From contig JAFUZJ010000018.1 in assembly GCA_017476665.1 (NCBI GenBank), positions 1 to 59,636 on the forward strand: DNA of 59,636 nucleotides, read 5' to 3'. The notes beneath the pieces were generated by a model, which saw nothing but the letters and a program-made list of their open reading frames with translations, did not search any database and had not been told where the DNA came from. This DNA is from Lachnospiraceae bacterium (lineage in GTDB: Bacteria > Bacillota > Clostridia > Lachnospirales > Lachnospiraceae). The translations under genes were made by a program, and so were the position numbers. Shown here piece after piece: positions 21,138 to 57,149 of this stretch; within the stretch, counting starts at the first letter, position 1, and every line of letters starts with the position of its first letter.

Positions 21138-21461
21138 ATGGAGATTTATCAATTCTTATTTCGGGATGGTCTGCTGCAGGACAGCGACAGGAAGAAACTG
21201 CTGGACTACTGTGAAAATAAGCTGTACAAGCTGGAGCAGTATGACAGGGAGAATGCCACTGCACTGCAGGAGACTGTGTTAGCCTATTACAAAAACGGCT
21301 TCAGTGTGGTGCATACGGCCAAGGCGCTGGGACTTCATCGTAATTCCCTGCGGTACCGGCTGCAGAAGATCTGGGACCTTCTGCAGCTGGATCCGAATGA
21401 TTATATGGGTTATCTGGAATTGGTAAACTGCCTGTTGGTGAGGCGTATGATACAGGGTTAA
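21138..21461 (+). CDS. Stand-alone PucR/CdaR-type C-terminal helix-turn-helix protein
   Basis: 107 residues. The second half (ALQETVLAYYKNGFSVVHTAKALGLHRNSLRYRLQKIWDLL) is the PucR C-terminal HTH (HTH_30) that normally ends 400-500 residue regulators such as CdaR and PucR; here the sensory and GAF parts are absent. It begins 12 bp after gltD with a GGGGTGAGG ribosome binding site, so it is likely the third gene of the gltBD operon. A role in controlling nitrogen genes is inferred from position only. Its last 4 bases overlap the convergent sulfatase-type gene. Confidence 0.75.
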   Translation: MEIYQFLFRDGLLQDSDRKKLLDYCENKLYKLEQYDRENATALQETVLAYYKNGFSVVHTAKALGLHRNSLRYRLQKIWDLLQLDPNDYMGYLELVNCLLVRRMIQG

Positions 21462-23137
21462 GGTCGGAAAACTTTTCCGGTGGGGATGAGCGTGTCGTTA
21501 TCGCTTGCGAGACCGTGTTGTATATACTCCACAAGATTGTTGCCGTTTTCGTCCGGTAACAGGCAGCGGCGCTCCCGTTTGTCGCCTGCTTTATACTCGA
21601 AGACGGAATCGCCAAGGCTTCCGTCAAGCAGTTTCTCGTAAGCGGCGGGAAAATCTTCCTGCGAGATCGGGGCGGAGTTGACCTGCATCACATCATGTGT
21701 CTCCCCAAATCCTTTTATGAAGAGAATCGGGTCCTGACGGCCGATAGATGCAGACTGTTCATCCCAGCCAATACCGTGATCCGCCAGTATGATGATCACA
21801 CTGTTGTCATATACTCCCTGGGCCTTGAGCCTGTTCAGATAAGTGTCGATCATGGTGTTGGTTGCTTCCACACAATCTGTGTAGGATGTTAAACTGCTGT
21901 ATTCCATATTGCGGTTCAGTTCAAAAGGATAATGGGCGCCGGCGATGTGGAGCAGCTTAAATCTGGGCTTTTTATCCTGGGCGATCGTCAGGTCGTTGTC
22001 CCGATGTAGAGCATAAAACGGCCAGTTGGAATAAAAAAAGTTCCAGACTTTGTATTCGTCTGCCGACGCATTGAAATGTTCCGTGAATTCCGTGGGAAGC
22101 ACCTGGCTGTATGGCTTCAACTGGTATGGCAGATATTTATAGCCAACCAGGCGGAGCCATACTTTGGCAAAATCTAACGGATGTTCCAGGTTTCTCGCCT
22201 GGTCGATAATGTTTTCGTAACAGAGTACTTTGTCGCTTGTGAGCGGTGCTGCGTCCGTATACAATCCCATGACATATTTTTGGGATTGCAGCTTCTGCAC
22301 CAACGGAGATTCGAGATAGGTCCATTCATTATAGGTATCAAAATCCTCCTGATATTCATACCATTTTCCGCCCACCAGAAACGGCAGTGCATTTACGGTA
22401 TAACCGTATCCGCTCACCACGTTGTCATAGTAGGTGAAATCTTTGAACATTACTTTATCTTCCGGATATTTTTCCAGTGTCTTGTTTTCATATTCAATGT
22501 CCACAGTGTCTACCACCAGAATGATAAAATTCTTGTCAGCGGAGTATTCCATCCAGTTTTTATCGGTTATGACAAGGTCCAGTTTCCGGACGAAGCCTTT
22601 ATTCAGAACACCGGTTGTCACGGTAGTAAAGACGAAGATCAGGAGCATCACGCAGGAAGTGATGCGAACGAGCTTACAGAATCTTGCTTTTTTGAGCAGA
22701 AAAAAGAGTACACCGAGAACAAGGAAGACAAGGATCCATAAGATCAGACTCTGTCTGTACTGGGCTGTGTACCGGCTCCAGTCGATCGAACTGCCGTCCA
22801 GTTCTGCCAGATCTTTTACAAAGTAATTTCCCTGAACATAAAGGGCGACATAGACGGAAAAAGCGAGAAATAGCGCATAAGGGCTGAACTTTGGCAGCAC
22901 GGCATAAAGAATTGTGTATCCGGCAATGCATAGGATCGCGCATACAAGAAATGTCACCGCGCAGACGGGAAACAGGGTATATACATCAAAGATATAGTCC
23001 ATGGAATTTTGAAAATAAATGCATAGCGGTTCGAACATGCACAGCATGAACGCCGCTGTGACTGACAAAAAAATGCCCGCATAGTAGGCGTCTGTATTAA
23101 AACGCAGTCTTTTCTTTTTTTCTTTATGGGTCTTCAT
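21458..23137 (-). CDS. Membrane-anchored sulfatase / LTA synthase-superfamily protein
   Basis: 559 residues. The N-terminus has five hydrophobic helices (to about residue 190), followed by a large extracytoplasmic alkaline-phosphatase-superfamily domain: KNFIILVVDTVDIEYE opens the fold, and VIIILADHGIGWDE carries the metal-binding ADHG. It resembles phosphoglycerol/phosphoethanolamine transferases acting on envelope polymers. The usual nucleophile Thr/Ser in a NxxSxxxT block is not obvious (the DTVDI segment occupies its place), so activity is uncertain. The start at 23137 (MKTHKEKKK) has ACGGAGG before it. Monocistronic. Confidence 0.7.
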   Translation of the reverse strand: MKTHKEKKKRLRFNTDAYYAGIFLSVTAAFMLCMFEPLCIYFQNSMDYIFDVYTLFPVCAVTFLVCAILCIAGYTILYAVLPKFSPYALFLAFSVYVALYVQGNYFVKDLAELDGSSIDWSRYTAQYRQSLILWILVFLVLGVLFFLLKKARFCKLVRITSCVMLLIFVFTTVTTGVLNKGFVRKLDLVITDKNWMEYSADKNFIILVVDTVDIEYENKTLEKYPEDKVMFKDFTYYDNVVSGYGYTVNALPFLVGGKWYEYQEDFDTYNEWTYLESPLVQKLQSQKYVMGLYTDAAPLTSDKVLCYENIIDQARNLEHPLDFAKVWLRLVGYKYLPYQLKPYSQVLPTEFTEHFNASADEYKVWNFFYSNWPFYALHRDNDLTIAQDKKPRFKLLHIAGAHYPFELNRNMEYSSLTSYTDCVEATNTMIDTYLNRLKAQGVYDNSVIIILADHGIGWDEQSASIGRQDPILFIKGFGETHDVMQVNSAPISQEDFPAAYEKLLDGSLGDSVFEYKAGDKRERRCLLPDENGNNLVEYIQHGLASDNDTLIPTGKVFRP

Positions 23138-23223
23138 AATAGCCTCCGTAATTTTGAACATCATTTCAGACAATAGGATAGCATTTCGATGTGGAAAAAT
23201 CAAGAGAGTGCGTAAAGACGTCG

Positions 23224-23281
23224 AGAATTAAAAACTCTTAAGAATTGTTAACTTGTGACGTCAGGGAACAGGTGATAAGAT
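23224..23281 (+). promoter_or_regulatory. LytTR-like operator and promoter, copy 1
   Basis: Half sites AGAATTAAA (23224) and ATTGTTAAC (23244) have their central TT pairs 21 bp apart, with a third ACTCTTAAG (23234) between. They end at the -35 box TTGTGA (23253-23258), 17 bp spacer, TAAGAT (23276-23281). The stretch 23232-23284 is nearly identical (about 46 of 53 bases by eye) to 27131-27183 before the other lipoprotein unit. Confidence 0.6.
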
Positions 23282-23325
23282 GGAATTGTAGTGATACGAC
23301 AATTGGGCGGGGAGAAAATCAGCGG

Positions 23326-24438
23326 ATGAAGAAAAGAGTTGTAGTATACGGAGTGCTTCTTTTATTGGTGATGTGCATGGGACTGGTTTCATGTGGGGCT
23401 GTGCGGGAAAATTCCGCGGAGCCGGAAGGAGATATGAGGGATTCCGATACAGCTTCAGCGGAGCAGGTATCATCCCAAATCCCTGAGCGCCTGGTGGAGG
23501 AAATCGGGGAGACGGGCAGAATTGATGCGGTCATTGCAGTACCGGATTGTGTCAGGGAGAAGGGATTTCAAAAGGCGACGGCGAAACGGGTGGATATTGA
23601 TCAGGACGGGGTGCTGGCTTTTTTGGAGGAATTTTATCACCCGCGCAAAGGAATCGAATATGAGCAGGGGATTCAGTATCGGGGGGAGGATGACATGTAT
23701 CTGTTTTTCCCCAAAGAACCGCAAGGGGGCGCATCGATGACCAGTTCTTTGCGGAATTATATCTCGATGGCATACCGCGACGGACTGGCGGAGGACTATA
23801 ATCGGGATTTATATCCCATAGATACCACGCTTGAGGGTTTTTCTCTGGAGGATTGTGATGAGATGCTTGGGAAGTTTCATCAGAGCATAGGGCTGACCGG
23901 TGATGTGGGTGTGGTACATTGGGCGCTGGATCATAGAACGATGGAGGCGGAGGCGGTGGAATTACATGTGGACGGACCGGACACAAAGCTGGATTACCGA
24001 TGGACTGCCGGGGATGACAGCTATTATTGCGCCGTGTCCCAATTATGTAACGGAATGCCGATTCTTTCGTCTTTTTATATTGTCGCCTATGCTGACATAT
24101 TGAATGCCGGCGGCTACAATTGCCTGATCAATCGGGACCGGATCATTTCGTTTTCTGTGGAAAATATCTATGACATTCAATACGAGGAGGCCTGTGAGGA
24201 ATTGTTGGCGTTTCCGGAAATTGTTGAAAAATATAAGGATTACAGAAGTTCTTTGGGGCAGAATTATGAGACGACAGTGACAGATATTGCCATGAGAGTC
24301 TTTGCCATCAATCAGGGGAAGGATGAATATGAACTGGTTCCTGTATGGATCTTTTACGGCAGATGGAGGGATACGGAGGAAGACGTTACCGGGGCGCATG
24401 CAATATTTATTCATGCAGTTACGGGGGAGAGGTTATGA
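23326..24438 (+). CDS. Lipoprotein of unknown function
   Basis: 370 residues with a clear lipoprotein signal (MKKRVVVYG, hydrophobic run, lipobox LVSC at about residue 25), so it is exported and lipid-anchored. The mature part is acidic with many aromatic residues and no motif I recognise. Preceded by a GGCGGGGAGA ribosome binding site and the LytTR-like promoter described above. It converges on the sensor kinase gene, 34 bp away. Control by the neighbouring two-component system is inferred from the shared promoter element. Confidence 0.75.
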   Translation: MKKRVVVYGVLLLLVMCMGLVSCGAVRENSAEPEGDMRDSDTASAEQVSSQIPERLVEEIGETGRIDAVIAVPDCVREKGFQKATAKRVDIDQDGVLAFLEEFYHPRKGIEYEQGIQYRGEDDMYLFFPKEPQGGASMTSSLRNYISMAYRDGLAEDYNRDLYPIDTTLEGFSLEDCDEMLGKFHQSIGLTGDVGVVHWALDHRTMEAEAVELHVDGPDTKLDYRWTAGDDSYYCAVSQLCNGMPILSSFYIVAYADILNAGGYNCLINRDRIISFSVENIYDIQYEEACEELLAFPEIVEKYKDYRSSLGQNYETTVTDIAMRVFAINQGKDEYELVPVWIFYGRWRDTEEDVTGAHAIFIHAVTGERL

Positions 24439-24472
24439 TATGTCGCATGAAAAAATTATTATACAAGGAGCA

Positions 24473-25831
24473 TCAGAGAGTCCCGGCACACGACAAGGAT
24501 TGGCGGCGCATGTTCTCATCAATGATCGGAATGAGAATGTCCAGGATGAATAGATTTTCGACTTTGGTTGAGAGGAATCCGTTATTTTCCTGAACCGCCT
24601 TTTCCATATTGGCGAGACCATATCCGTGGTTTAATGTGTCTTTCCGGGCGGCGTCGGATGCTGCATCCGAATTGTACGGATAGGCGTTCTCGGTATGGAT
24701 GCGGAACTTGTCGTTGTCGGTGGTCTCGATGGCGATGAAGAAGCTGCGGTTTTTAAGCCCCGGACTGCTGCATGCTTCCAAAGCGTTGTCGAGGAGGTTG
24801 CCCAGTATGATACAGAGGTTGTAGTCGTCCACGGGGATACGGTTGCAGTCCACGTTTAAGTCAGCATCGAAGGTGATGTGGTTGGCGTGGAAGATAGTTT
24901 CGTAGTTGGTGAGGAAAGCATCGATCACAAGATTTCCGGTGTTGTATCTGACGTAGGTGGATTCCAGGTCTGTGATGGCGGAGTGGGTGTAGTCGAGCAG
25001 GTTTTGCAGGTCGTCATGGCGGATATATTCCTGAATGGAGAAATAGTGTTTTTTCACATCATGAATGATCCGGCGGTTTTGGCGATAGGCTTCACTGAGT
25101 TGGTTGTATTTCTCTTTTTGGAACGTAAGCTGTTGCTCCATTTGGAGATTTTTGAATTCTATGGCGGCGTATTTCCGGCTGCCCTGAATGAGAATGAAGT
25201 TGATGATATTCAAGAGGGCAAGACTTAGGAATAGGGAGTTGTAGAAAAAGGTGTCTCCCTTGTAGATGATCTTTAAGGGCAGGAGACAGTAGATGAACAG
25301 CGTGATGACCGGCGTGGTGAGCAGGAGTGCATTGTATTCCGCCTGAGGCATAGTGATATTGTCTTTTCGTCGGAAGAAAGAGAGAGCAATGCACAGAATG
25401 AGCAGAATCAGTTTGGAACCACCGTTCATAGTGTTGTATAGGATATCTGTGTTGTCCGTGCTTAAAAAGAGAGGGTTTACTTTGGAGACAATATAGGTGA
25501 AAAGGATTTCTCCCATGGACGCGAGAATCTGGAAGACAAAGGCAGTCAGAAGCTTTGCTTTGACGGAAGCCTTGAAGAAAAAGCAAAGCAACAGTGTGGT
25601 GAGGAGGCTGATGGCTATGGTGATGGCTTTCGCATAGGGAAAAGGGTGGTTCTTAAGCAAAATTTCATTTAGGTAGAGCACAAGCTCCACGGTGATGAGC
25701 GCGGCAAAATAGAGTCCATCAAAATGAAATTCATTTTGAAGGGAAGTTTTTTTGGAAAAAAGACTGTTCAGAAAAACAGTTAAGATCAGCATATCCAGTA
25801 AATAGGTGCTCACTGTGATCAGGATATTCAT
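24473..25831 (-). CDS. AgrC-like sensor histidine kinase (GHKL ATPase)
   Basis: 452 residues. Six or seven hydrophobic helices to about residue 210, a coiled linker (YAAIEFKNLQMEQQLTFQ), then the phospho-acceptor region RRIIHDVKKHYFSI with its His at about 260, and a GHKL ATPase with N box ILGNLLDNALEAC and a G box HGYGLANMEKAV. This is the AgrC/ComD-type peptide-sensing kinase layout, pairing with LytTR regulators. No AgrB or obvious peptide precursor gene lies nearby, so the signal is unknown. The start overlaps the response regulator's stop by 4 bp (ATGA). Confidence 0.85.
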   Translation of the reverse strand: MNILITVSTYLLDMLILTVFLNSLFSKKTSLQNEFHFDGLYFAALITVELVLYLNEILLKNHPFPYAKAITIAISLLTTLLLCFFFKASVKAKLLTAFVFQILASMGEILFTYIVSKVNPLFLSTDNTDILYNTMNGGSKLILLILCIALSFFRRKDNITMPQAEYNALLLTTPVITLFIYCLLPLKIIYKGDTFFYNSLFLSLALLNIINFILIQGSRKYAAIEFKNLQMEQQLTFQKEKYNQLSEAYRQNRRIIHDVKKHYFSIQEYIRHDDLQNLLDYTHSAITDLESTYVRYNTGNLVIDAFLTNYETIFHANHITFDADLNVDCNRIPVDDYNLCIILGNLLDNALEACSSPGLKNRSFFIAIETTDNDKFRIHTENAYPYNSDAASDAARKDTLNHGYGLANMEKAVQENNGFLSTKVENLFILDILIPIIDENMRRQSLSCAGTL

Positions 25832-26577
25832 TGGCGCAGACCTCCTCTTTTGATGGCTACAATCTTGTTTCGATAATTGTCCAGTAATGCTTTTTTATTT
25901 TTTCTGCTGACGGTGATTCTGGCGCCGTTGTCTAAAACAATTTCCATGTCGTTTATATAGTGAATGTGGGTCAGGTTCACCAGTACGGTGCGGCTGCAGA
26001 TGTGGAAGGCATGTTCCAGCAGCAGGTTTGTCCAGGTGGTCAGAATACCCTTGGCGTGGATCTGATCATCATGCAGATAAAAACAGAGTTCTTTATTCTT
26101 GGCATCTACGGTTTCAATGTAGTAGATGTCATCGATATTTAAGGTGTATTCGTTTTCATATCCATCAATGATGGAGATCAAGCTCTTGTTGTATTCTATG
26201 TCATAGAGGATGTCGTCCATCAGTTTTGTGATCTCATTTGCGGTGACCGGTTTCTGGATAAAGTGGTAGGGGTGGACTTTGAAGCTGTCCTGCATGTATT
26301 TGGGATAGTTGCTGACAAAGACAATGATCACATCATGATCGATGGTTCTGCGGATGGTATCGGCAATGGTGATGCCGCTTTCGCCGGGCATTTCGATGTC
26401 GATCAGCAAAAGCTGAAATTGATGCTGTTCCGTGTAGTTGGTCAAAAGCTCTCTGCCGTTCTCAAATTCTTCTATATGAAAGTCATAGTCGCGGTTGAAG
26501 GCGTAGCTGTTCAACAGACGATTTACTTCGGCGCGGTCGGTTTGTGTGTCGTCACATATGGCGATATTCAGTGTCAT
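25828..26577 (-). CDS. LytTR-type response regulator
   Basis: 249 residues: receiver domain (NIAICDDTQTDRAEV; phospho-acceptor Asp in LLLIDIEMPGESG; conserved Lys in FIQKPVT) followed by a LytTR DNA-binding domain (YIETVDAKNKELCFYL ... HICSRTVLVNLTHIHYIN). Partner of the adjacent AgrC-like kinase. LytTR proteins bind direct repeats about 21 bp apart next to a -35 box, which is what is seen at 23224 and 27122; a paired ACAGTT site also lies 36 bp before this gene, suggesting autoregulation. Confidence 0.9.
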   Translation of the reverse strand: MTLNIAICDDTQTDRAEVNRLLNSYAFNRDYDFHIEEFENGRELLTNYTEQHQFQLLLIDIEMPGESGITIADTIRRTIDHDVIIVFVSNYPKYMQDSFKVHPYHFIQKPVTANEITKLMDDILYDIEYNKSLISIIDGYENEYTLNIDDIYYIETVDAKNKELCFYLHDDQIHAKGILTTWTNLLLEHAFHICSRTVLVNLTHIHYINDMEIVLDNGARITVSRKNKKALLDNYRNKIVAIKRGGLRQ

Positions 26578-26612
26578 GCGTGTGATCCCCTTTGTCTTTC
26601 CGTATAAGTAAG

Positions 26613-26633
26613 TAACAGTTCCGGACAGTTACC
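26613..26633. promoter_or_regulatory. Paired ACAGTT sites before the LytTR regulator
   Basis: ACAGTT occurs at 26615-26620 and again exactly 10 bp later at 26625-26630, inside an imperfect 21 bp dyad (GTAACAGTTCCGGACAGTTAC). The same ACAGTTAC core forms the outer half site at 27122. Position 36 bp upstream of the regulator start suggests autoregulation. Confidence 0.45.
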
Positions 26634-26751
26634 AATATACATGATAGCGGAATTTTATGCAATGGGGGGATTTTGGGGGATGAATGGGTGGAAATTGCGG
26701 ATGAGTGGCATAGGAGAATGCCTAAAAAGTGAAAAAGCCAGAGAATGTTGT

Positions 26752-27075
26752 TCAGTTTTTGAGAATTTTGACTATTTCCAATATCTTCTGCTGTTCGGAT
26801 ATGGTCATTTTAGATAGTTCCTGCTTTAGCTCGATCAAGATATTGTCATCAGTGAAACCGAGGATGTCATTCGGTGTGGTCTCGAGTTTTTTACAGTATC
26901 CAAGGAGCATCTCAATGCTTGGTTTTGAGACGCCTCTCTCTACTGCAGAGATGTGGTTTTTGGTGAGACCGGTTGATTCTACCATGTCGGATTGCAATAA
27001 TTTATGGGCTTCCCGTGCATATTGCAAAAGCCTTCCGATTCTTGCATTTTCAGCTTCGTTTGTTTTGTTTGCCAT
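26752..27075 (-). CDS. XRE-family helix-turn-helix regulator
   Basis: 107 residues. The Cro/CI-type HTH is clear (IGRLLQYAREAHKLLQSDMVESTGLTKNHISAVERGVSKPSIEMLLGYCKKL), followed by a short helical tail (LIELKQELSKMTISEQQKILEIVKIL) that could dimerise. No good ribosome binding site precedes ATG 27075. It lies between the LytTR regulator and the second lipoprotein unit, whose promoter is within 50-110 bp of this start, so divergent regulation is plausible but unproven. Confidence 0.8.
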   Translation of the reverse strand: MANKTNEAENARIGRLLQYAREAHKLLQSDMVESTGLTKNHISAVERGVSKPSIEMLLGYCKKLETTPNDILGFTDDNILIELKQELSKMTISEQQKILEIVKILKN

Positions 27076-27121
27076 TTGCAAGCAGTCAACGGCTATTCAT
27101 GATGAATCTGCATGGTTCTGA

Positions 27122-27180
27122 ACAGTTACAAAACTCTTACGAATTGTTAAGTTGTGACATTAGGGAACGAGTGATGAGAT
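27122..27180 (+). promoter_or_regulatory. LytTR-like operator and promoter, copy 2
   Basis: Half sites ACAGTTACA (27122) and ATTGTTAAG (27143) lie 21 bp apart, with ACTCTTACG (27133) between. -35 TTGTGA (27152-27157), 17 bp spacer, TGAGAT (27175-27180). Nearly identical to the segment at 23224-23281. The leader to the gene is about 130 bases. Confidence 0.6.
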
Positions 27181-27318
27181 GGATCCGTTCATCCATTTAT
27201 TTTGCCGTTTCATCCGAAAAAACGATCTCTTTGATCTTTTATTGTGCTATAACAGGGATAATTCAATAAGCAGTCTGGAAATTAATAGGATTGAAGGGAT
27301 AGGTGGTGGAAAAAACAT

Positions 27319-29622
27319 ATGAAAAGAAAGTATTTTGTATGGATGATATCCGCGCTGCTCCTTCTCTTGGGCATGGCAGCGTGTGCAACAGGCGGGGATG
27401 AAGGGGTGGGGCAGAATCAAAACAGGGGGCAGAAACAAAAAGGAAAACAGAATCAGACAGGCGGGACAATAGGCAACAGAGAAGGATCCAAAGGAGAAGC
27501 AGAGACTTCAGAAGACATTTCACAACAGTATATTTATTCCCGCGAAGTGATTGATTTTGCTGAATACGGGAGCGGTGTAGTGATTCACGATCTTGTCTGT
27601 GCAGATGACCGGATATTTGTCTTGATGGAGGTACGCGAGTGGGGCGCTGAGCCGGAGGACAACAGTCAAAAACAGGAAAGCACCAGTTATTACCGGGTGT
27701 TCTCCTGTATGTCTGACGGGAGTGCAAAAACGGTATCTAAGGAAATCAATCTGCCGGAAAGCGGCGGATATATCAGTGAATTGCAATTATCCGGCAACGG
27801 GTGCGTAGCCGGGTTGTTTTATTCTGAGGCGGATGATTCCGTAAGTCTGCTGTTATGGGATGCGTTTCAAGATGTCCGTTGGGAAAAAACGGCGGCTTCC
27901 GGTGGGGAGCTTTTTGCCGGAACGGATCAGTTTGTACTTTTTACAAAAAGCGGAAAAGACAGGATGATACATTTCTATAACGGACAGGGAGAATTGACAG
28001 AAAGCGTCAAGGCAGAGGGGGAAGGCTTCGATAATTTTGAGTACTGTTTTTTTACGCAGGAAAACAAATTCCTTGTCATCAGAACGGACCGGGAGGGAAG
28101 TGCTTGCGCGGAAATCTATACGGGGGATGGGAGATTGGAATCGCATCGAAAACTGCCGGATTGTGTTCCGATGGGGCAGAAACGGATTTTTCCGGCAGGC
28201 AATGAGGCTATCCTGTGGTGTGATTCAACAGGTGTGTATCGGTTGGATTTAGGGGAGAATACGCCTGCGGAAATCTTTTCCTTTGTAGATGCTGATTTGG
28301 ATACGGATGGGTTTCAACTGGTACAACAGATAGACGAAGTCAGCATTGCGGGAATATTTGATACAAGCGGCACAGTGAAGCTCGGACTTTTTGCCCGTAC
28401 GCAGGGGGTGGAAGGAACCCTGCGGCAGAGTGTGGTGTTGGGGACTATGGGGGAGTTGGATGCAGACTTAAGGAGTCAGATCATATCCTTTAACCGGCAA
28501 AATACCGGGTACAGGATCATGGTAAAGCAATATATCACCTATGATGAGGAGCAGAACGCCCTCGTCCAGTTGAATGCGGATATTCTGTCGGGGAATATGC
28601 CGGACATTTTGCTCATGGATCAAGAACTGCCTCTCCAAAGTTATATTGCAAAGGGACTGTTGGCAGATGTGGGAAAACTATTGGAGGAAGATAAGGAACT
28701 TGACAGCGGGCAGTTTGTGACGAATGTCATGGATGCTTTTCGGGTGAACGGCACGCTGTATTATGCGACACCTGCTTTTTGTGTGGATACGCTTGTGGCA
28801 AAGCAGTCGAAGGTGGGAAAACGGACAGGCTGGAATACAGCGGAGTTTTTGGCTGTGAGAGCAGCTCTGCCGCAAGGTATGGAGGTGCTGTCCGAAACCT
28901 CCAAGGAGGACTATTTGCGGGATTATATGCGGGTATGCGGCAGAGAGTATGTGGATATGAATGCGGGAAAAGCGAATTTTCAGTCAGAGGATTTTGCGGA
29001 GGCGCTTCGGTTTGCAGCAGGATTGCCGGACTATGCGGAAAGGTTTGATTCTGGTGAAAATAGTTATGATTCCCGGTATATCGAGGACAGAGCCCTGCTC
29101 CAACCGGTTACGATCCGCAGGATCAGCGATCTGGCACAACAAATCAATGGATGTATCGGGGAAGAAATTTCATATGTGGGCTATCCGACAGAGAGCAGAG
29201 AGGGTTCCTGTATCCGGGTGTATGGAAATGCTTTCGTGCTTTCCGGTCAAGGTGACAGATTGGATGGGGCATGGGAATTTGTGCGGTATTTTCTCACAGC
29301 GGATTATCAGAGAAAGGAAATGTACACAGGAGGATTGCCCATCAGAAAGGATATTTTTGAGGAAAAGGCAAAGGAGGCAGCAGACTATGAAGGATATTGC
29401 TTTGTCAATGATGAATGGATTGCGTTGGCGCCTATGACACAGCCGCAGATTGACAGGGCGGTGGACTTCATTATGGGAGTGCATAATCCGGCTTTTGAGG
29501 ATGAGGTAATCATAAGGATTATCTTGGAAGAAGCGGAGAGTTTCTTTCAGGGGCAGAAAAGTGCCGAAGCAGCAGCGGGGGTGATTCAGAACAGGGTGCA
29601 GCTGTATCTGAATGAGAAATAA
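27319..29622 (+). CDS. Lipoprotein with propeller-like N-half and solute-binding C-half
   Basis: 767 residues. Lipobox MAAC at about residue 22, then a Gln/Lys/Gly-rich disordered linker. Residues about 70-370 show repeated short beta-like blocks ending in aromatic or Asp-Gly turns, possibly a beta-propeller. Residues about 375-767 look like an ABC extracellular solute-binding protein (FNRQNTGYRIMVKQY, NADILSGNMPDILLMD, ending EEAESFFQGQKS...IQNRVQLYLNEK). No permease or ATPase genes are adjacent, so it may be a sensor or binding lipoprotein rather than an importer part. Paralogous to the gene at 30463. The LytTR-like promoter lies upstream. Confidence 0.7.
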   Translation: MKRKYFVWMISALLLLLGMAACATGGDEGVGQNQNRGQKQKGKQNQTGGTIGNREGSKGEAETSEDISQQYIYSREVIDFAEYGSGVVIHDLVCADDRIFVLMEVREWGAEPEDNSQKQESTSYYRVFSCMSDGSAKTVSKEINLPESGGYISELQLSGNGCVAGLFYSEADDSVSLLLWDAFQDVRWEKTAASGGELFAGTDQFVLFTKSGKDRMIHFYNGQGELTESVKAEGEGFDNFEYCFFTQENKFLVIRTDREGSACAEIYTGDGRLESHRKLPDCVPMGQKRIFPAGNEAILWCDSTGVYRLDLGENTPAEIFSFVDADLDTDGFQLVQQIDEVSIAGIFDTSGTVKLGLFARTQGVEGTLRQSVVLGTMGELDADLRSQIISFNRQNTGYRIMVKQYITYDEEQNALVQLNADILSGNMPDILLMDQELPLQSYIAKGLLADVGKLLEEDKELDSGQFVTNVMDAFRVNGTLYYATPAFCVDTLVAKQSKVGKRTGWNTAEFLAVRAALPQGMEVLSETSKEDYLRDYMRVCGREYVDMNAGKANFQSEDFAEALRFAAGLPDYAERFDSGENSYDSRYIEDRALLQPVTIRRISDLAQQINGCIGEEISYVGYPTESREGSCIRVYGNAFVLSGQGDRLDGAWEFVRYFLTADYQRKEMYTGGLPIRKDIFEEKAKEAADYEGYCFVNDEWIALAPMTQPQIDRAVDFIMGVHNPAFEDEVIIRIILEEAESFFQGQKSAEAAAGVIQNRVQLYLNEK

Positions 29623-29658
29623 CGGAAATTTTCTGTAATTGACAAGGAGGGATTTGTG

Positions 29659-30332
29659 ATGAAGAGAAAGAAATTTGTTATTGGATTGTGTGTGGGTTTG
29701 TGTCTTGTATTGGGGGCATGTAAAATGGGGACAGAGGAGAACCATGAGGATGCTTATGGGGACACGGCCGGATCAGTTCATCTGAAAACCATGGAGAGCG
29801 CGGTTATTGCAAGTCAGGAGGATGTGAAACGGGAGGCGGCTGATGAGGCGATCAATACGAACAAGACAATGATGCTGAACCGAAGATGGCGGACGGAGAG
29901 GATGGAAAGCGGGAATGGTGGGTTGTCAATTTTGCCAATGAGGAGCAAAATTATGTGAGTATCATCATCTGTGACGGTGCGGTGGATGTGGTGGAACATT
30001 TTGACCGCAACTGGAACAATGGGCTGCTCGATCAGGCGGATATTAAGCTCACGGCAAAGGAGGCTGCGGAACTGGCAAAGAAGTTAGGCATGCGCGGCGG
30101 AAATCCGGAGAATCCGGAGGACTGGGCCTATGGGTATCACTTTAAGATGTCCTATGATGCTTTGGCAGTAACCCCGGAGGACAGAAGAATTTTCCTGGAG
30201 GTGATCGGCGTTTCGCCTGACGGGAACTTTGCGCATATTGATTTTGATGCGGTCACGGGTGAGTTGTTGCTTGCTGTGGAGGAAATTGAGCATGAGAACG
30301 GGGAGACGGAATGGCGCGGCTGGGGGGATTGA
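29659..30332 (+). pseudogene. Frameshifted small lipoprotein
   Basis: 29659-29958 opens with a strong ribosome binding site (AAGGAGG) and a lipoprotein signal (MKRKKFVIGL...VLGACKM), then degenerates into Arg/Met-rich out-of-frame residues. A second frame, open from 29847 to 30332, continues with a sensible sequence (DGKREWWVVNFANEEQNY ... HIDFDAVTGELLLAVEEIE). The two join at about 29847-29880, so one protein of about 220 residues has been broken by a small insertion or deletion. It could also be a sequencing error. Same lipoprotein cluster. Confidence 0.6.
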
Positions 30333-30354
30333 GGTAAAATATCCGTGTGAAATG

Positions 30355-30390
30355 TGGCAATTTGCGATTAAAGCAGACTGCCAATTTTTT
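30355..30390 (+). terminator. Terminator after the frameshifted lipoprotein
   Basis: An imperfect stem TGGCA...TGCCA (30355-30365 with 30373-30383) followed by ATTTTTT. It separates the 27.3-30.3 kb unit from the next lipoprotein genes; a weak TTTACA promoter follows at about 30395. Confidence 0.5.
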
Positions 30391-30462
30391 GTGATTTACA
30401 AAAAAATTGAAACCTTCTGATACTCTGTTGCATCTAATCAGTAAAGGGGCGAAGGAGAGACC

Positions 30463-32808
30463 ATGAAAAAGAAAATATACAGGATGATGGTATTGTTGAC
30501 GACGGTTCTGTTGTTTGCTGTGAGTTGTGGGAAAAAGGATGAAGTGAATGGTGGAAGCAATCTGTCAGAAGCGCAGTCGAAGAAAGGAACGGCATCGGAG
30601 GATAAAGGTTCGTGGAGATTTTCCCATGCAGCATTGGAGGAACGGTATGAGCTGGCAACGGTAAAGGAGGATAAGATTTACGGCTGTTATTATACCGGAG
30701 AGGGACTGGCGGTCTCAGTCCAGGATATGGAGGCGGGGGCATATAAGAATGGGTTTGGGATTTGGGAAAGCTATGTGATTCCGGGTGTGACGGAAATCCA
30801 GAATATGACGGTGGATTCCCAAAACCGGATCTGTCTCTTTGGTGTTGCGGAAACGGGGAATACACTGTGGCAGGTGGAGCAGAATGGCGAAATCCATGTG
30901 ATAGAGAACATAGAGCTGGAGGATTTGGGGGAGTTTGTATCGCCGAAAGGTTTTTGGGCGGATAGTAAGGGACATTATTATCTGTGGTATGGGATGTCGG
31001 TTCCATGGAGCGAGGCATATGAAAGGGAAACAAAGGAGGGTGGAACCTGGGAGAGCGAAACCGGAGATGGTGAAAGCAAAGGGAGGATCGTATATACCAG
31101 TCTTGACCGGATCTATGTGAAGGATCAGAACATGCATACCATCTGCTATGAGCAGGTTCCTGATTCCGGTTACAATAAATTGGTGAGTCTGTTATTTGAT
31201 GAAGACGGGATTCCAATGCTGTTGGCAAAGGACGAGGAAGGGTATTACATGCGCAGGGTGCGGACGGAGAAACGGGATGCGTATGAGCCGCAGCGCATAG
31301 AGGAGCCAGACGAGAACGGCAGTCTCTCTGATCATGGGCAGGGTGCTTTGTATGGTTTGGAAATGGGAGGTAATCTTGCGCTGACGAAGCAGGGACTTTT
31401 ATACACAAGGGACGGTGCCCTGTATCTGTATCACACGGAAGACGGCAAAGAGGAAAAGCTTTTGGAGCTTGCGGGCGGCGGTATTCTTGAGGACGATATT
31501 ATTTATCTGGGCATGCGGGGGGAAAGCATTGATATCATAGATAATTATCAGGGCAGCAAGGGGTCGGAGTATACCAGGGCAGAGATTGGGGAGAGTACGC
31601 AGGCAAGGGTGTCTCTGGGGGTGATGCAGCTGCAGCCTAAAATGCAGGAAGCAATTGCAGCTTTTAACCGGTATCAGGATGAGGTGTGGATTGAGCCGGT
31701 TGTGTATGTGGAGGGATATGACTATGACGAAGGGTACGAAAAGCTAAAGCTGGAGTTGTTGCAGGGGAAGGCGCCTGACATTATCGCCACAGAGGGAATT
31801 GACTATGAGGTGCTGGCAAATGCGGGGGCATTTATGGATCTGTACGGATTTATGGATGAGGATACGGAAGGTAACAGGGAGAGGTTTGTTTCCAGTGTAT
31901 TGAAAGCATATGAAGTGGACGGAAAGTTGTATACTGCGGCACCGAATTTTTTCATCTATTCTATGTGGGGCGGCAGCAGTCTGGTGCAGGAGAGAAGCGG
32001 CGTGGATATGGAGGAATTGATGCGGATTCTCCACGAGAAGGGAGGGAGCGTCAACAGTATCTATGGTTTCGGCGGTGACGAAAGTGTGCTAAGAACGCTG
32101 TGCACGCTGGGGATGGACGAGTTTGTCGATTGGGACAAGGATACCTGTGATTTTACGGGGGAGGGATTCTGTGAACTCTTGGAATTTGTGAAAGAATACA
32201 GGGAACCGCAGTTTGACAGCTTATATAAGGCAATCCGGGAGAGGGAGATTCTGCTGAGTGAAGGGATGATCGGATCTGTGGAGGAATATTGTCTGCAATC
32301 GGAGCTGTATGGGGAAAGGGTGGAATTTATCGGATATCCCTCAGCGAAGGGAAGCGGAGTGGCGGCGAGTATGAACGGTATGCTGGCAATCAATGCGAAG
32401 AGCGGGAATCCGCAGGAGGCGTGGAAGTTTGTGAAGTTTTATTTGCTGCATGGCTATGATTATGATAGGGTTGGATTTCCGCTCATGAGAGAGCGGCTGG
32501 AAGAGGTGTTCACAGAGGCTATGGAGGAAAGGCAGGAGCCGGGAGAAGACGGAGTGACTGAAAGGGGGGCAAAGATCAGTTACAGGGAAAAGGATATTGT
32601 GGATCTTGTGATTTTTAAGGCGGAGAAGGAGGATGTGGAGGCTGTAAGGAATCTGGTGGAACGGGTGACAGGGAAGTTCGAGTACAACAATGAGATACAG
32701 AATATCATTGATGAGGAGGCGGAGAGCTTTTTCCGGGGACAGAAGTCCTTGGGGCAGGTGACGGAGGTGATTCAGAACAGGGTGCAGTTGTATTTGAATG
32801 AAAGATAA
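30463..32808 (+). CDS. Second propeller-like / solute-binding lipoprotein
   Basis: 781 residues, paralogue of the protein at 27319. Lipobox AVSC at about residue 22. The N-half (about 60-360) has the same irregular beta-rich pattern with Trp/Tyr/Gly-Asp turns. The C-half resembles a type 1 solute-binding protein (AAFNRYQDEVWIEPVVY, LLQGKAPDIIATEGIDYEVL, ending EEAESFFRGQKSLGQVTEVIQNRVQLYLNER). The shared 30-residue C-terminus with its paralogue is the most conserved part. No transport partners nearby. Ligand unknown. Confidence 0.7.
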   Translation: MKKKIYRMMVLLTTVLLFAVSCGKKDEVNGGSNLSEAQSKKGTASEDKGSWRFSHAALEERYELATVKEDKIYGCYYTGEGLAVSVQDMEAGAYKNGFGIWESYVIPGVTEIQNMTVDSQNRICLFGVAETGNTLWQVEQNGEIHVIENIELEDLGEFVSPKGFWADSKGHYYLWYGMSVPWSEAYERETKEGGTWESETGDGESKGRIVYTSLDRIYVKDQNMHTICYEQVPDSGYNKLVSLLFDEDGIPMLLAKDEEGYYMRRVRTEKRDAYEPQRIEEPDENGSLSDHGQGALYGLEMGGNLALTKQGLLYTRDGALYLYHTEDGKEEKLLELAGGGILEDDIIYLGMRGESIDIIDNYQGSKGSEYTRAEIGESTQARVSLGVMQLQPKMQEAIAAFNRYQDEVWIEPVVYVEGYDYDEGYEKLKLELLQGKAPDIIATEGIDYEVLANAGAFMDLYGFMDEDTEGNRERFVSSVLKAYEVDGKLYTAAPNFFIYSMWGGSSLVQERSGVDMEELMRILHEKGGSVNSIYGFGGDESVLRTLCTLGMDEFVDWDKDTCDFTGEGFCELLEFVKEYREPQFDSLYKAIREREILLSEGMIGSVEEYCLQSELYGERVEFIGYPSAKGSGVAASMNGMLAINAKSGNPQEAWKFVKFYLLHGYDYDRVGFPLMRERLEEVFTEAMEERQEPGEDGVTERGAKISYREKDIVDLVIFKAEKEDVEAVRNLVERVTGKFEYNNEIQNIIDEEAESFFRGQKSLGQVTEVIQNRVQLYLNER

Positions 32809-32853
32809 TGGAAGTTGTGGAAATTGGATGAAATGCTGAGGGAGGAATTCGTG

Positions 32854-33744
32854 ATGATGAGAAAACAGTTAGGAATCGTGTTATTGGGAGTGTGTTTTTG
32901 GTTGGCTGCGTGCGGAAATACGGAGGCGGACGGGAACCCCGGGGCGGGCGAGGTGGTTCATCAGGAGCAGCTGAATCAACAAGTGGGATTGAAGCGAGGA
33001 AACGATCCGGCTATGGGAAAGGAACTGGAAATGGTTGTGCTTGAAAAAAGTGTGGATGGCTCCGGCGACCGATGGAGTGTGGAGACGGAGGGGCTGCGTA
33101 TTACTTTGGATACCACAGATTCCCGTGAAAAGCCGGCAAGATTGATGATCGGGGAGAAGGAATATCCGTTTTCTTATGCGGGATATGAGCCGGTGGCGGA
33201 GAGACCGGAGGCGGCGTTCTATGATGTGAACGGGGATGGTGTCTTGGATGTGTTGATGAGGGGCGAGGCGTATCGGACAGAGCTTCGGCAGGATGTGTAT
33301 TTATCCGACGGCAAGGGAGGTTACATAGAGCTGGGAGATATGACATGGAACCGGCTGGAGCCGCTACAGAATGCGGTACAGTTTGAGACCCGGTTTGCGG
33401 ATCATAATAAGGTGCATGTGATTTGCAGGGATTGGAATATTGACAGTGTGCTGGATATTAAGGCAGACGATTTCCTGGAGATCGCGTTGGAAGAGGGGAT
33501 TTATGATGAGAAGGGTGAGGTTACGGAGTATGGAAAGAGCATTGTGCTGGACAGTCTGCAAGGGCGGGCGGTTCGGTATCTGGTGCGGGATGACCAAATT
33601 GTGGTACTCCGTTATGAGGCGGAGATTGAGACCGGGTATAGCGAGTATGGTCTGGGGCAGGAAATGGTGTTTACTTATTTGATCGGGGATGCCGGGTATG
33701 TGCTGGAGAGTGTGACAGTGGAAGCGATGACAGACAGTGAGTAG
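32854..33744 (+). CDS. Lipoprotein with a DVNGDG calcium-loop-like motif
   Basis: 296 residues. Signal with lipobox LAAC (about residue 20), then a polar region and a beta-rich body. FYDVNGDGVLDVLMRG resembles an FG-GAP/EF-hand-like calcium loop (DxNxDGxxD). Otherwise unrecognised. Start 32854 follows GGGAGGAATTC; it comes 45 bp after the upstream lipoprotein gene, likely in the same transcript. A strong terminator follows. Confidence 0.7.
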   Translation: MMRKQLGIVLLGVCFWLAACGNTEADGNPGAGEVVHQEQLNQQVGLKRGNDPAMGKELEMVVLEKSVDGSGDRWSVETEGLRITLDTTDSREKPARLMIGEKEYPFSYAGYEPVAERPEAAFYDVNGDGVLDVLMRGEAYRTELRQDVYLSDGKGGYIELGDMTWNRLEPLQNAVQFETRFADHNKVHVICRDWNIDSVLDIKADDFLEIALEEGIYDEKGEVTEYGKSIVLDSLQGRAVRYLVRDDQIVVLRYEAEIETGYSEYGLGQEMVFTYLIGDAGYVLESVTVEAMTDSE

Positions 33745-33752
33745 GGACAGAT

Positions 33753-33781
33753 AATTCCCGCTGAGTACAGCGGGAATTTTA
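33753..33781 (+). terminator. Terminator closing the lipoprotein cluster
   Basis: Perfect 11 bp stem AATTCCCGCTG (33753-33763) with CAGCGGGAATT (33768-33778), AGTA loop, short T-run. Confidence 0.8.
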
Positions 33782-33790
33782 ATGTAAAAT

Positions 33791-34288
33791 GGACGAGACA
33801 ATTTCTTTTCCGGCATTGATTTGAGGACACCCCTGACCGGACTGATGGGATATCTTGAGGTTTGCAGAAAAATGGATTCAGACGTTTCCGGTAAGAAAAC
33901 CTATCTGGAAAAATCGATGGAAAAGGCAATACAGATCAGGACTAAAGTGGAGTACGCATTGGGAGACTACTTATCGGAGCTCTGTGCACAACTGGACTAT
34001 CTGGGATTTGGCGTTTCCAGTTCCGACTTGGAATGGCATGATGTGAAGATTCAGATTCATTCAGATTATTTGGGACGAATCATGAATATTTCGTCCAGCT
34101 ATCTGGAAAATGAAGTAGGCATAAGCGTCAGCAACTATATAAAAAGTGATAATGCAAGAATTCAGGGGTCACAAATAGGGGTGAGTAATATCCTAAAGAT
34201 GATGCAGCAGATGAACGGGAAGGGTGAAGTATATTCGGAAAAGGATATTTATCGGATAACGCTGTGGTTTTCTATTTATAAAGAATAG
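33791..34288 (+). pseudogene. Degraded sensor histidine kinase
   Basis: A kinase remnant: DLRTPLTGLMGYLEV is the phospho-acceptor helix, but the His codon (CAT at 33814) is separated by one extra base from GAT TTG AGG, so it is frameshifted. The following sequence keeps a dimerisation helix and parts of the ATPase (DYLGRIMNISSSYLEN, VGISVSNYIK, GSQIGVSNILKMM, YRITLWF), but the D/G box region is shortened and the whole sensor half is missing. No partner regulator is present. A dead gene left beside the lipoprotein cluster. Confidence 0.65.
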
Positions 34289-34435: not shown

Positions 34436-34469
34436 ATATTAAGCTTCGTTTATGGAGGTGGCGTGGATT

Positions 34470-36161
34470 ATGGCAAGAGAGATTGCGATTGGTGTTCAGG
34501 ATTTCAGCAATTTGATTGAGAACAATTATTTTTATATTGATAAAACTGCATTTATCAGGGAATGGTGGAATTCCGGAGATGCGGTTACGCTGATCACACG
34601 CCCGCGCAGGTTTGGCAAAACGCTGAACATGAGCATGCTGGAATGCTTTTTTTCCAATAAATATGAGGGCAGGGTCGATCTGTTTGAAGGGCTGGATGTG
34701 TGGAAAGATGAGGAATTCCGTAAAGTGCAGGGAACTTATCCTGTTATCTTTCTGTCTTTTGCAGGGGTAAAGCAGGTGACCTATGAAAAAACAAGGGACC
34801 TTATCAATGAACTGATCACAAAACTGTTTATACAGTATGAGTGGCTTTTCAAAGATGTGCGTTTTACGAAAAAAGATAGGGAGTTCTATGACCAAGTGTC
34901 AAGAGGCATGGATGATGTTGTCGCGTCCATGTCCCTGAACATGCTCTGCGAATGGCTGCATAGGTATTATGGCAAAAAGGCCATAGTCCTATTGGATGAA
35001 TACGACACACCCATGCAGGAAGCCTATATAAACGGCTTCTGGGATGAGCTGGTCGCATATACGAGGGCGCTGTTCAACAATACTTTTAAGACCAATTCGT
35101 CACTGGAGCGGGCGGTTATGACCGGGATCACACGTGTCAGTAAAGAGTCCATTTTTTCTGATTTGAACAACCTTACAGTAGTTACCACTACGTCTGATAG
35201 ATATGCAAAGTCTTTTGGATTTACGGAAACAGAAGTATTTGCTGCCATGGATGAGCAGGGAATACCGGAGTCAGAAAAGGAAAAGGTAAAGTTCTGGTAT
35301 GATGGGTTTACTTTTGGCAAAGTGACGGATATTTACAACCCATGGTCAGTGACGCTGTATCTGGACGAGAGAAAGTATGATACCCACTGGGCAAACACCA
35401 GCGGGAACGGCCTGGTCGGCAAGCTGATCAGGGAAGGTGACAAAGGGATCAAGACGGAATTTGAGAGACTCTTAAATGGAGAATCTATAGAGGCGAAGAT
35501 TGACGAACAGATCATATTTAGCCAACTGGCTGGGAACAGGAATGCAATCTGGAGCTTGCTTCTTGCGTCAGGGTATCTGAAGGTAGCAAACGTTGTGTTC
35601 AGCAGTGCGGGAAAACCGACCTATCGGCTTGCTTTGACCAATTATGAAGTTAAGTGTATGTTTGAAACCATGATTGAAGCATGGTTTGCACAGACAGAGG
35701 ATTTTGGCGAATTTGTATCTGCCATGTTTAAAGGCGACGTAAAAAGTATGAACCGTTACATGAACAAGGTGGCGCTGAACACATTCAGTTACTTTGACGC
35801 TGGCAATAAACCTTCCGAACAGCGGGAACCGGAACGCTTTTATCATGGCTTTGTGCTGGGACTGATCGTAGACAAAGCGGAAGATTATATGGTGAAATCC
35901 AATCGGGAAAGCGGTTATGGCCGGTATGATGTGGTCATGGAGCCGAAAGATACAAAGAATGTGGCAGTCATCATGGAGTTTAAGGTGTTTGACACGGAAG
36001 ATGAGGAGAAAGAGCTTGTGGATACCGCAGCTAACGCCTTAAGGCAGATTGAGGAGAAAAAATATGATGCTGATCTGTTGCAGAGGGGGATACCTTTGGA
36101 AAATATCCTGAAATACGGTTTTGCTTTTGAGGGTGAGAAATGCTTGATCCGGAAGGGATGA
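34470..36161 (+). CDS. AAA-ATPase-like / PD-(D/E)XK nuclease family protein
   Basis: 563 residues of the AAA-ATPase-like plus PDDEXK_9 (DUF1703) family, present in many copies in gut Firmicutes and Bacteroidetes. N-terminal FSNLIENNYFYIDKTAFIREW and RPRRFGKTLNMSML (a Walker A variant), Walker B-like KAIVLLDEYDTPM, then the C-terminal nuclease-like core (GYGRYDVVMEPKDTKNVAVIMEFKVF: D...ExK). The role is not established; mobile or conflict-related functions have been suggested. Start 34470 is chosen for the TGGAGGTGG 8 bases upstream. Not linked to neighbours. Confidence 0.85.
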   Translation: MAREIAIGVQDFSNLIENNYFYIDKTAFIREWWNSGDAVTLITRPRRFGKTLNMSMLECFFSNKYEGRVDLFEGLDVWKDEEFRKVQGTYPVIFLSFAGVKQVTYEKTRDLINELITKLFIQYEWLFKDVRFTKKDREFYDQVSRGMDDVVASMSLNMLCEWLHRYYGKKAIVLLDEYDTPMQEAYINGFWDELVAYTRALFNNTFKTNSSLERAVMTGITRVSKESIFSDLNNLTVVTTTSDRYAKSFGFTETEVFAAMDEQGIPESEKEKVKFWYDGFTFGKVTDIYNPWSVTLYLDERKYDTHWANTSGNGLVGKLIREGDKGIKTEFERLLNGESIEAKIDEQIIFSQLAGNRNAIWSLLLASGYLKVANVVFSSAGKPTYRLALTNYEVKCMFETMIEAWFAQTEDFGEFVSAMFKGDVKSMNRYMNKVALNTFSYFDAGNKPSEQREPERFYHGFVLGLIVDKAEDYMVKSNRESGYGRYDVVMEPKDTKNVAVIMEFKVFDTEDEEKELVDTAANALRQIEEKKYDADLLQRGIPLENILKYGFAFEGEKCLIRKG

Positions 36162-36374: not shown

Positions 36375-36914
36375 ATGATTTTAACAATGACTTTTGATAC
36401 GCCTGCCGACAAAAGCAGGTTTGAGGAAATCTATGAAACCTATAAATTCTTGATGATGAAGGTAGCTTATGGCGTATTACAGGATCGGTTTCTGGCGGAA
36501 GATGCGGTGCACAATGCCTTTGTGAACATTTCTGGGAAAATGGCACAATTAGAAAATATGGATGAAACCGGCATCAAGAGGTATCTGATTGTCGTAACTA
36601 AAAATGCGGCGATTGACATTTGGAGGAAGAGGAAAATACGCAGCGAAAAAGAGGTGGAATTTGATGCGGCAGGGGAGGAAAGGCTGTCAATGACAGGGAC
36701 GGAAAGCAGTGTTGACAATGAGATTCTGGATGCGTTTCAAAGGCTTCCGGATATTTACAGGGATGTATTTCTGCTGAAATATGCGCACTGTCTTGAAAAT
36801 GATCAGATCGCGGGGGCTTTGAAGATTTCTGAGTCAACGGTAAGGCAGAGAATTGCGCGAGGCAAGGTTCTGCTAAAAAAAGAACTGGAAGAATTGAATG
36901 GAAGGGGGAATTAA
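36375..36914 (+). CDS. ECF-type RNA polymerase sigma factor
   Basis: 179 residues. Region 2 (FEEIYETYKFLMMKVAYGVLQDRFLAEDAVHNAFVNI) and region 4 (FQRLPDIYRDVFLLKYAHCLENDQIAGALKISESTVRQRIARGK) are both present, joined by a short linker, as in alternative extracytoplasmic-function sigma factors. Followed 2 bp after its stop by a DUF4367 membrane protein that is probably its anti-sigma partner. The ribosome binding site is weak. Target promoters are unknown. Confidence 0.88.
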   Translation: MILTMTFDTPADKSRFEEIYETYKFLMMKVAYGVLQDRFLAEDAVHNAFVNISGKMAQLENMDETGIKRYLIVVTKNAAIDIWRKRKIRSEKEVEFDAAGEERLSMTGTESSVDNEILDAFQRLPDIYRDVFLLKYAHCLENDQIAGALKISESTVRQRIARGKVLLKKELEELNGRGN

Positions 36915-36916
36915 TC

Positions 36917-55267: not shown

Positions 55268-55321
55268 TTGCATTTTGTACATAACAATGGTAAAGTAATC
55301 TTAAGTCGGAAATTGTTCCGA
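55268..55321 (+). promoter_or_regulatory. Promoter and 5' hairpin of the sugar ABC importer
   Basis: TTGCAT (55268-55273), 17 bp, TAAAGT (55291-55296). A perfect 6 bp dyad TCGGAA-ATTG-TTCCGA (55306-55321) lies at about +4, so it could be an operator or a 5' mRNA-stabilising hairpin. Confidence 0.5.
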
Positions 55322-55353
55322 TGAAACATTCTATTTTTTTAGGGAGGAAAAAA

Positions 55354-57021: not shown

Positions 57022-57149
57022 TCTCTAAAACTGTTCTAAATTCAGGTTGGGATAGCCAAACTTGATATTTTATCCGGTGGGCATCGGGTCCGGGCGATCA
57101 GGTGCCCATCGGGATAAATATAAAAAACTATAATAAAGCGGGGTGTCTT

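Follow-up and report, generated by a model that had tools for sequence, protein, structure and literature searches.

A putative receiver-only Agr-type kinase-regulator pair between surface lipoprotein units in a Lachnospiraceae genome

We analyzed a 59,636-nucleotide (nt) stretch of DNA from a Lachnospiraceae bacterium (assembly GCA_017476665.1, contig JAFUZJ010000018.1; hereafter the window), which belongs to a 3.6-Mb draft genome that is 97% complete. In it, a kinase gene, a LytTR regulator gene and a small XRE gene on the minus strand sit between lipoprotein 1 and a four-lipoprotein unit (unit 2), both on the plus strand. We judge it moderately probable that the kinase and regulator form a receiver-only Agr-type pair that drives a set of surface lipoproteins, possibly with feedback from one of them to the kinase. 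Specifically, an extracellular ligand, probably a peptide that is not made by an AgrBD of the cell's own, would act on the multi-pass AgrC-like kinase, which would phosphorylate the LytTR regulator. The regulator would then act at upstream regions marked by a shared 54-nt element and switch on both lipoprotein 1 and, on the opposite flank, the unit of the propeller/solute-binding lipoprotein. Lipoprotein 1, which is predicted to fold like YycH/YycI, may in turn affect the kinase on the outer side of the membrane. From the comparison of sequences, regulation of the window lipoproteins by the pair is likely, and we infer the binding of the regulator to the window elements, the peptide nature of the ligand and the contact between lipoprotein 1 and the kinase. 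AgrC-like pairs apart from agrBD are already known; the new feature here is the link of such a receiver-only pair with surface lipoproteins, and no publication describing an Agr-type pair together with these lipoproteins was found among the matches listed in a search of the open-licence PMC literature.

The initial annotation of this region had described a minus-strand AgrC-like kinase and LytTR regulator between plus-strand lipoprotein units, which was confirmed by the protein domains, the transmembrane-like segments and the H-box. It had also counted four lipoproteins plus one frameshifted, two of them with solute-binding domains, and indeed a lipobox was found in all five plus-strand lipoproteins (in the first piece of the frameshifted gene) and SBP_bac_8 and SBP_bac_1 matches in two. 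The XRE-type helix-turn-helix gene between the regulator and element copy 2 was absent from that annotation. The features are as follows:

23231..23284, plus strand: copy 1 of the shared element; the start codon of lipoprotein gene 1 lies 41 nt downstream
23326..24438, plus strand: lipoprotein 1, DUF6034-like (weak match), predicted YycH/YycI/YpeB-like fold
24473..25831, minus strand: AgrC-like sensor histidine kinase (HATPase_c_5, 2.6e-13)
25828..26577, minus strand: LytTR response regulator (Response_reg, 4.7e-16; LytTR, 5.3e-14)
26623..26632, plus strand: candidate half-site GRACAGTTAC of putative function, upstream of the regulator gene
26752..27081, minus strand: small XRE-type helix-turn-helix regulator gene (HTH_3, 2.8e-8)
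27120..27129, plus strand: second candidate half-site GRACAGTTAC, likewise of putative function, directly before element copy 2
27130..27183, plus strand: copy 2 of the shared element; the first start codon of unit 2 lies 135 nt downstream
27319..29622, plus strand: propeller/solute-binding lipoprotein, with an N-terminal beta-propeller and a C-terminal carbohydrate-type solute-binding domain (SBP_bac_8, 7.2e-16)
29656..30332, plus strand: lipoprotein gene with a frameshift (overlapping open frames 29656-29958 and 29886-30332)
30463..32808, plus strand: second solute-binding lipoprotein, 781 amino acids (SBP_bac_1, 4.1e-10)
32857..33744, plus strand: last lipoprotein of unit 2, with a lipobox (FG-GAP, 0.029, weak and below the cut-off)

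Unit 2 thus spans four lipoproteins (27319-33744), the second of which is frameshifted, and its spacing is loose in part, with a gap of 130 nt at 30333-30462.

The pair has the Agr features of an AgrC-type multi-pass kinase and an AgrA-type regulator with a LytTR domain. By crude hydropathy the kinase has seven transmembrane-like segments separated by short gaps (at residues 1, 39, 64, 93, 134, 166, and 195), its H-box is intact (RRIIHDVKKHY), and the kinase module of Staphylococcus aureus AgrC was its only PDB match at E <= 0.01 (0.0032). For the comparison with relatives, stretches around their genes were fetched (L-numbers) from their genomes (G-numbers). The kinase is 39% identical to that of L097 and 43% identical to that of L098, whose H-box is also close to its own, and the regulator tree joins the window with L097 and L098 (support 97/81) and then with L099 (99/94); AgrB adjoins the pairs of L098 and L099. 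Kinase matches at E <= 1e-25 were found in nine other genomes among 396 in the family, and no regulator orthologue was detected in 100 other congeneric genomes, where the best-scoring matches were 30-33% identical. These results together suggest that the pair may have been acquired from another genus.

The statement of the initial annotation that peptide-signal genes are missing holds, as regards AgrB, for the whole genome, in which no PF04647 match was detected (97% complete; 15 candidates scored); none of the control genomes in that run had a match over the cut-off, and the same Pfam model detects AgrB in relatives. No AgrB fragment was present in the window, and no AgrD precursor was recognised among the small open reading frames (ORFs) of the locus, the rest of the genome not having been searched for AgrD. 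The possibility that the elements encode the start of a broken AgrB gained no support from a search of the window for AgrB pieces. Among relatives, one locus of G044 (L169) combines an AgrD-like ORF (5062-5211; identified by visual inspection and without a Pfam match), AgrB (1.8e-31), an XRE gene, a regulator, a kinase, and lipoproteins including a solute-binding one. In L102, from another genus, AgrB, a related pair (its regulator 31% identical to that of the window) and the first part of a solute-binding lipoprotein gene that runs off the contig lie within 2 kb. A truncated AgrB piece (3.3e-9) stands beside the pair of G071 (L161), and a short AgrB-like piece, weak alone (0.034), lies between regulator and lipoprotein in G093. 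The signal genes of G044 and the remnants in G071 and G093 would agree with a history in which the signal genes were lost and the receiver and lipoproteins were retained. Pieces of AgrB beside lipoprotein-linked LytTR pairs were located at 7010-7251 of L230 and 6399-6800 of L161, and L230 perhaps holds an AgrD piece too (by eye).

The association between LytTR regulators and these lipoproteins was evaluated by counting regulators within 6 kb of the relatives of each lipoprotein. Treating loci as independent and ignoring shared ancestry, the counts exceeded expectation for the congeneric relatives of lipoprotein 1 (5/5; expected 0.21; P 7.4e-8), for relatives of the propeller lipoprotein (7/16; expected 0.48; P 1.4e-7), and for relatives of the second solute-binding lipoprotein (3/15; expected 0.45; P 0.009). 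Expected values used the per-genome PF04397 count as density, with 10 per 3.1 Mb assumed for three records. For the second solute-binding lipoprotein, 15 of its 33 other places were fetched, and a sixteenth (L071), more than 6 kb from the regulator there, was left out of the count. Among the propeller loci, the regulator was less than 1.5 kb away in L071, L072, L079, and L121, 2.3 kb away in L125, and 4.1 and 4.5 kb away in L078 and L070, respectively; in L070 the LytTR profile match alone was seen, and several stretches were cut by contig ends. In the four closest cases, the lipoproteins are preceded on the same strand by related regulators; those of L071 and L072 are nearly identical, and the L121 regulator shares 80% identity with the L071 one across 135 residues. 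Since similar pairs are often kept beside these lipoproteins in relatives, the window pair probably controls its lipoproteins.

A sequence motif upstream of the relatives' genes points in the same direction. TGTC[GT]TTT[CG][AG]TGC followed by GTTG was found upstream of lipoprotein 1 relatives and also before units that hold relatives of the second solute-binding lipoprotein (G106, G015, and G044); in G015 no LytTR regulator was present within the fetched 20 kb. With up to one mismatch, 74 stretches (1.16 Mb) held 10 sites versus none in the reversed sequences and a mean of 0.0 in shuffled sequence, and with two mismatches 17 versus 4 and 4.4, in a sample that was chosen for carrying these genes and is not neutral. 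Next we searched 138 congeneric genomes with TGTC[GT]TTT[CG][AG]TGC-N6-GGTTG (up to one mismatch), which yielded nine sites versus two for the reversed pattern, as compared with three versus three for an N7-spacing control. Six of the nine, including all four exact ones, lie beside a LytTR regulator-kinase pair, and the further neighbours are a lipoprotein 1 relative in G046 and G093, a unit with a solute-binding lipoprotein in G106 and G044, and an unclassified lipoprotein in G129, the G101 site lying at a contig end; the sites in G104, G107, and G100 have no adjoining LytTR pair. Variants of the motif also precede regulator genes in L131, L155, L165, and L197. The regulators of the motif group form one clade of ten (100/100 support), to which the pair of G044 belongs and that of G071 does not. 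This clade serves lipoprotein 1 relatives in some species and solute-binding lipoproteins in others, and so joins the two lipoprotein types that flank the window pair. The suggestion of the initial annotation that the kinase may control the lipoproteins is thereby strengthened to a likely regulon, given the enrichment of LytTR regulators beside relatives and the motif that there precedes lipoprotein units as well as some regulator genes.

In another regulator clade (L154, L155, and L212), the lipoprotein gene is preceded by TTTTGACA-type repeats that recur every 22 nt, of which those of L154 are 10/11 identical (0/100 shuffles as good), those of L155 9/11 (no shuffle test), and those of L212 9/11 (reached by 10/100 shuffles). 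A repeat with a 21-nt period was found in L152 (10/11; 2/100 shuffles), and most other upstream regions scanned had no repeats beyond chance. L154 and L155 also hold, in one locus, two LytTR pairs of different clades together with a solute-binding lipoprotein and a lipoprotein 1 relative, and L155 has a third LytTR regulator-kinase pair.

In the window itself, the two copies of the shared element (23231-23284 and 27130-27183) are 87% identical over 54 nt. A 33-nt pattern derived from both matched twice in the window and not in shuffled sequence, and a 22-nt pattern (up to three mismatches) matched only these two copies in the whole genome, which makes the resemblance more than chance. The candidate half-site GRACAGTTAC occurs three times in the window versus 0.10 expected, at 26623, at 27120, and inside a gene at 57544. 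A gene for a sulfatase-family membrane protein (21458-23203, minus strand; a 35% identical paralogue is in L040 of the same genome) is divergent from lipoprotein 1, and element copy 1 may therefore serve it too.

Several observations weigh against control of these lipoproteins by the pair. The exact neighbourhood, whose conservation the initial annotation had proposed to check, was seen in no relative examined, and the outcome of that check is mixed; what recurs is pairs of its parts, with LytTR pairs that are not orthologous, the window regulator being 23-30% identical to the lipoprotein-linked regulators of its own genus and of the lipoprotein 1 loci. The nearest relatives of the pair (L097, L098, and L099) show none of these lipoproteins in their short stretches (3.7-13 kb). 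The loci behind the linkage P values are not independent, because the regulators of L071, L072, and L079 form one clade to which that of L121 is close, and for the second solute-binding lipoprotein most loci lack the link to LytTR. The relatives' motif (N6, up to one mismatch) has no site in the window genome, and the 54-nt element was not found in the fetched loci of relatives, where the best match was 22/34 versus 19-20 in shuffled sequence; the likeliest candidate (L082) was rejected as lying inside a receiver-domain gene. The initial annotation had called the element a promoter: its presence before both units stands; a simple sigma-70 scan marked neither copy, so that a promoter role is deduced from its position. 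Direct repeats spaced about 21-22 nt, which the regulator of an Agr system binds upstream of target promoters, were not detected above chance in the elements (periods 19-24; shuffles equal in 10/100 and 30/100), leaving the GRACAGTTAC half-sites as the only candidates, and a search of the elements for AgrA-type boxes was uninformative because similarly scoring pairs are common in the window. Finally, by its position the XRE protein is just as good a candidate regulator.

This last point leads to the first alternative, in which the XRE protein rather than the LytTR regulator acts on both elements and the pair is there by chance or controls something else. Element copy 2 is located between the divergent XRE gene and unit 2, with the start of the XRE gene about 50 nt away, and the core of the element is a near-palindrome (TTAAGAATTGTTAA in copy 1), as is often the case in helix-turn-helix operators, and lacks LytTR-type repeats beyond chance. 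However, copy 2 holds a less perfect palindrome, copy 1 lies away from the XRE gene, and the relatives of these lipoproteins are linked to LytTR pairs; an XRE-like gene next to the pair was seen at least in L169 and L125. We consider this explanation unlikely.

Lipoprotein 1 raises a second alternative. The best matches of known role to its predicted model are kinase-accessory proteins of the YycH/YycI/YpeB type, and its family includes a solved but uncharacterised structure (5coz); no papers on DUF6034 were found among the matches listed in the same literature. It matched 5/137 other congeneric genomes at E <= 1e-12 and, as a profile at E <= 1e-8, 21 other genomes among 396 sampled across the family; we fetched 20 stretches from outside the genus, for 20 of the 26 other places with a profile match. 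A downstream ABC (ATP-binding cassette) ATPase gene on the same strand is present in 22/25 loci of lipoprotein 1 relatives, that is, in 17/20 outside the genus (about 1.6 kb away in most) and in all five congeneric ones, where a LytTR regulator is present as well; usually one or two multi-pass membrane proteins lie in between. Outside the genus, a LytTR regulator occurs within 6 kb in 4/20 loci, and one further locus has a kinase only. The family therefore usually heads an ABC transporter operon, and the window unit has no ABC genes, so that the absence of a transporter noted initially applies to the window unit and not to most of the relatives' loci. A locus of G516 (L199) resembles the window in that a LytTR pair lies between two lipoprotein 1 relatives (the second one weak, 1e-7) with no ABC gene downstream. 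These operons would suit a role in peptide-antibiotic sensing or immunity, with lipoprotein 1 as the lipoprotein of an ABC transporter module that here lacks its ABC genes. Such a role appears improbable considering the kinase-accessory fold and the lack of ABC genes in the window unit, although no search of the genome for a distant partner was made.

The third alternative concerns the solute-binding lipoproteins, which in a carbohydrate-sensing surface system would bind an oligosaccharide and hand it on to the kinase. Three-component sugar-sensing systems work in this way, with a solute-binding lipoprotein and a kinase whose extracytoplasmic sensor domain meets the binding protein. The C-terminal domain of the propeller lipoprotein is nearest in the PDB to the sugar-binding CbpC (3.9e-14) and to Lmo0181 (1.5e-9). 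Its model has strands at residues ~71-376, mostly with high pLDDT (predicted local distance difference test), and propellers top the Foldseek list; the solute-binding half was modelled poorly, and the whole model reached only 59.5. Relatives with 40-65% identity were found in 13/137 other congeneric genomes (contig ends cut two, G027 and G061), besides a wide family of more distant paralogues, and a scan of 84,980 genomes returned 16 loci, mostly from Acetatifactor or Lachnospiraceae and including one Gastranaerophilales record; the second solute-binding lipoprotein was found at E <= 1e-100 in 31 other congeneric genomes. A locus of the window genome (L039) carries two paralogues of the propeller lipoprotein, with two ABC permease, HlyD-like, and MacB-like genes between them, and a kinase and a LytTR regulator are among the genes listed for a Roseburia polysaccharide locus (PMC5320581). 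On the other hand, the N-terminus of the window kinase consists of transmembrane-like segments with no sizeable outer domain that could serve as an extracytoplasmic sensor (crude hydropathy), the kinase is AgrC-like, the regulators nearest to that of the window are linked to AgrB, and the scan of window proteins from 21 to 42 kb identified neither a permease nor a glycosidase. Carbohydrate sensing is thus quite improbable, and nutrient capture, as proposed in the initial annotation, stays one option beside the kinase-accessory fold of lipoprotein 1; overall, that annotation's interpretation is partly supported.

That the shared element is a mere duplicated upstream segment with no regulatory meaning is very unlikely: its identity does cover the presumed -35 to -10 interval, where conservation is unneeded, and both copies translate to similar stretches of ~13 residues, but both precede lipoprotein units on either side of a regulator, and no further copy was found in the genome at up to three mismatches of the 22-nt pattern.

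The receiver-only Agr-type pair can be compared with several known systems. It shares with Agr (AgrB, AgrD, AgrC, and AgrA) the multi-pass kinase with HATPase_c_5, the LytTR regulator and near relatives that adjoin AgrB, and differs in the lack of a detected AgrB in its genome and in having lipoproteins as neighbours. RgaS-RgaR of Clostridioides difficile and VirS-VirR of Clostridium perfringens are also AgrC-like pairs apart from agrBD, that is, receivers without adjacent signal genes, and RgaR sites are direct repeats (PMC10602386). Their genomes have agrBD elsewhere, and the named RgaR targets include agrB1D1 and a small RNA, in contrast to the lipoproteins that neighbour the window pair and to the lack of a detected AgrB in its genome. 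Lipoprotein 1, whose gene lies beside the kinase gene, has the fold of the YycH and YycI proteins that accompany WalKR; the window kinase is AgrC-like rather than WalK-type, however, and the regulator family differs as well. YycH and YycI are anchored by a membrane helix, where lipoprotein 1 has a lipid anchor. The ABC transporter operons led by lipoprotein 1 relatives share the lipoprotein family (5coz) and differ by their ABC genes.

A wider proposal, which we put forward tentatively and regard as somewhat unlikely in full, is that in gut Lachnospiraceae Agr-type receiver pairs repeatedly lost their signal genes and kept or gained a lipoprotein output, some of it (YycH-like) acting back on the kinase, so that cells would listen to the peptides of neighbours and change their surface while sending no signal. 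If true, peptide quorum sensing would be linked to large lipoprotein families of gut Lachnospiraceae whose role is mostly unknown, the lipoprotein 1 family with its solved relative would gain a functional lead, and listen-only signalling among gut bacteria would have a testable case. The relatives' motif makes part of the regulon directly searchable.

Further genes, all on the plus strand, follow unit 2. A short histidine kinase gene remnant (33821-34288; HisKA, 1.9e-4) comes directly after the last lipoprotein and is followed by an AAA-ATPase/PD-(D/E)XK protein (34452-36161; PF09820 and PF08011), of which a 64% relative is held by L103, near a distant kinase relative. An extracytoplasmic function (ECF)-type sigma factor gene and then a DUF4367 protein occupy 36375-37609; in the relative from G122 (L071), an ECF-type sigma gene lies between the solute-binding lipoproteins. 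Near the window end (55321-58097), an ABC permease gene (BPD_transp_1, 57102-58097) follows a 566-residue protein without a Pfam match.

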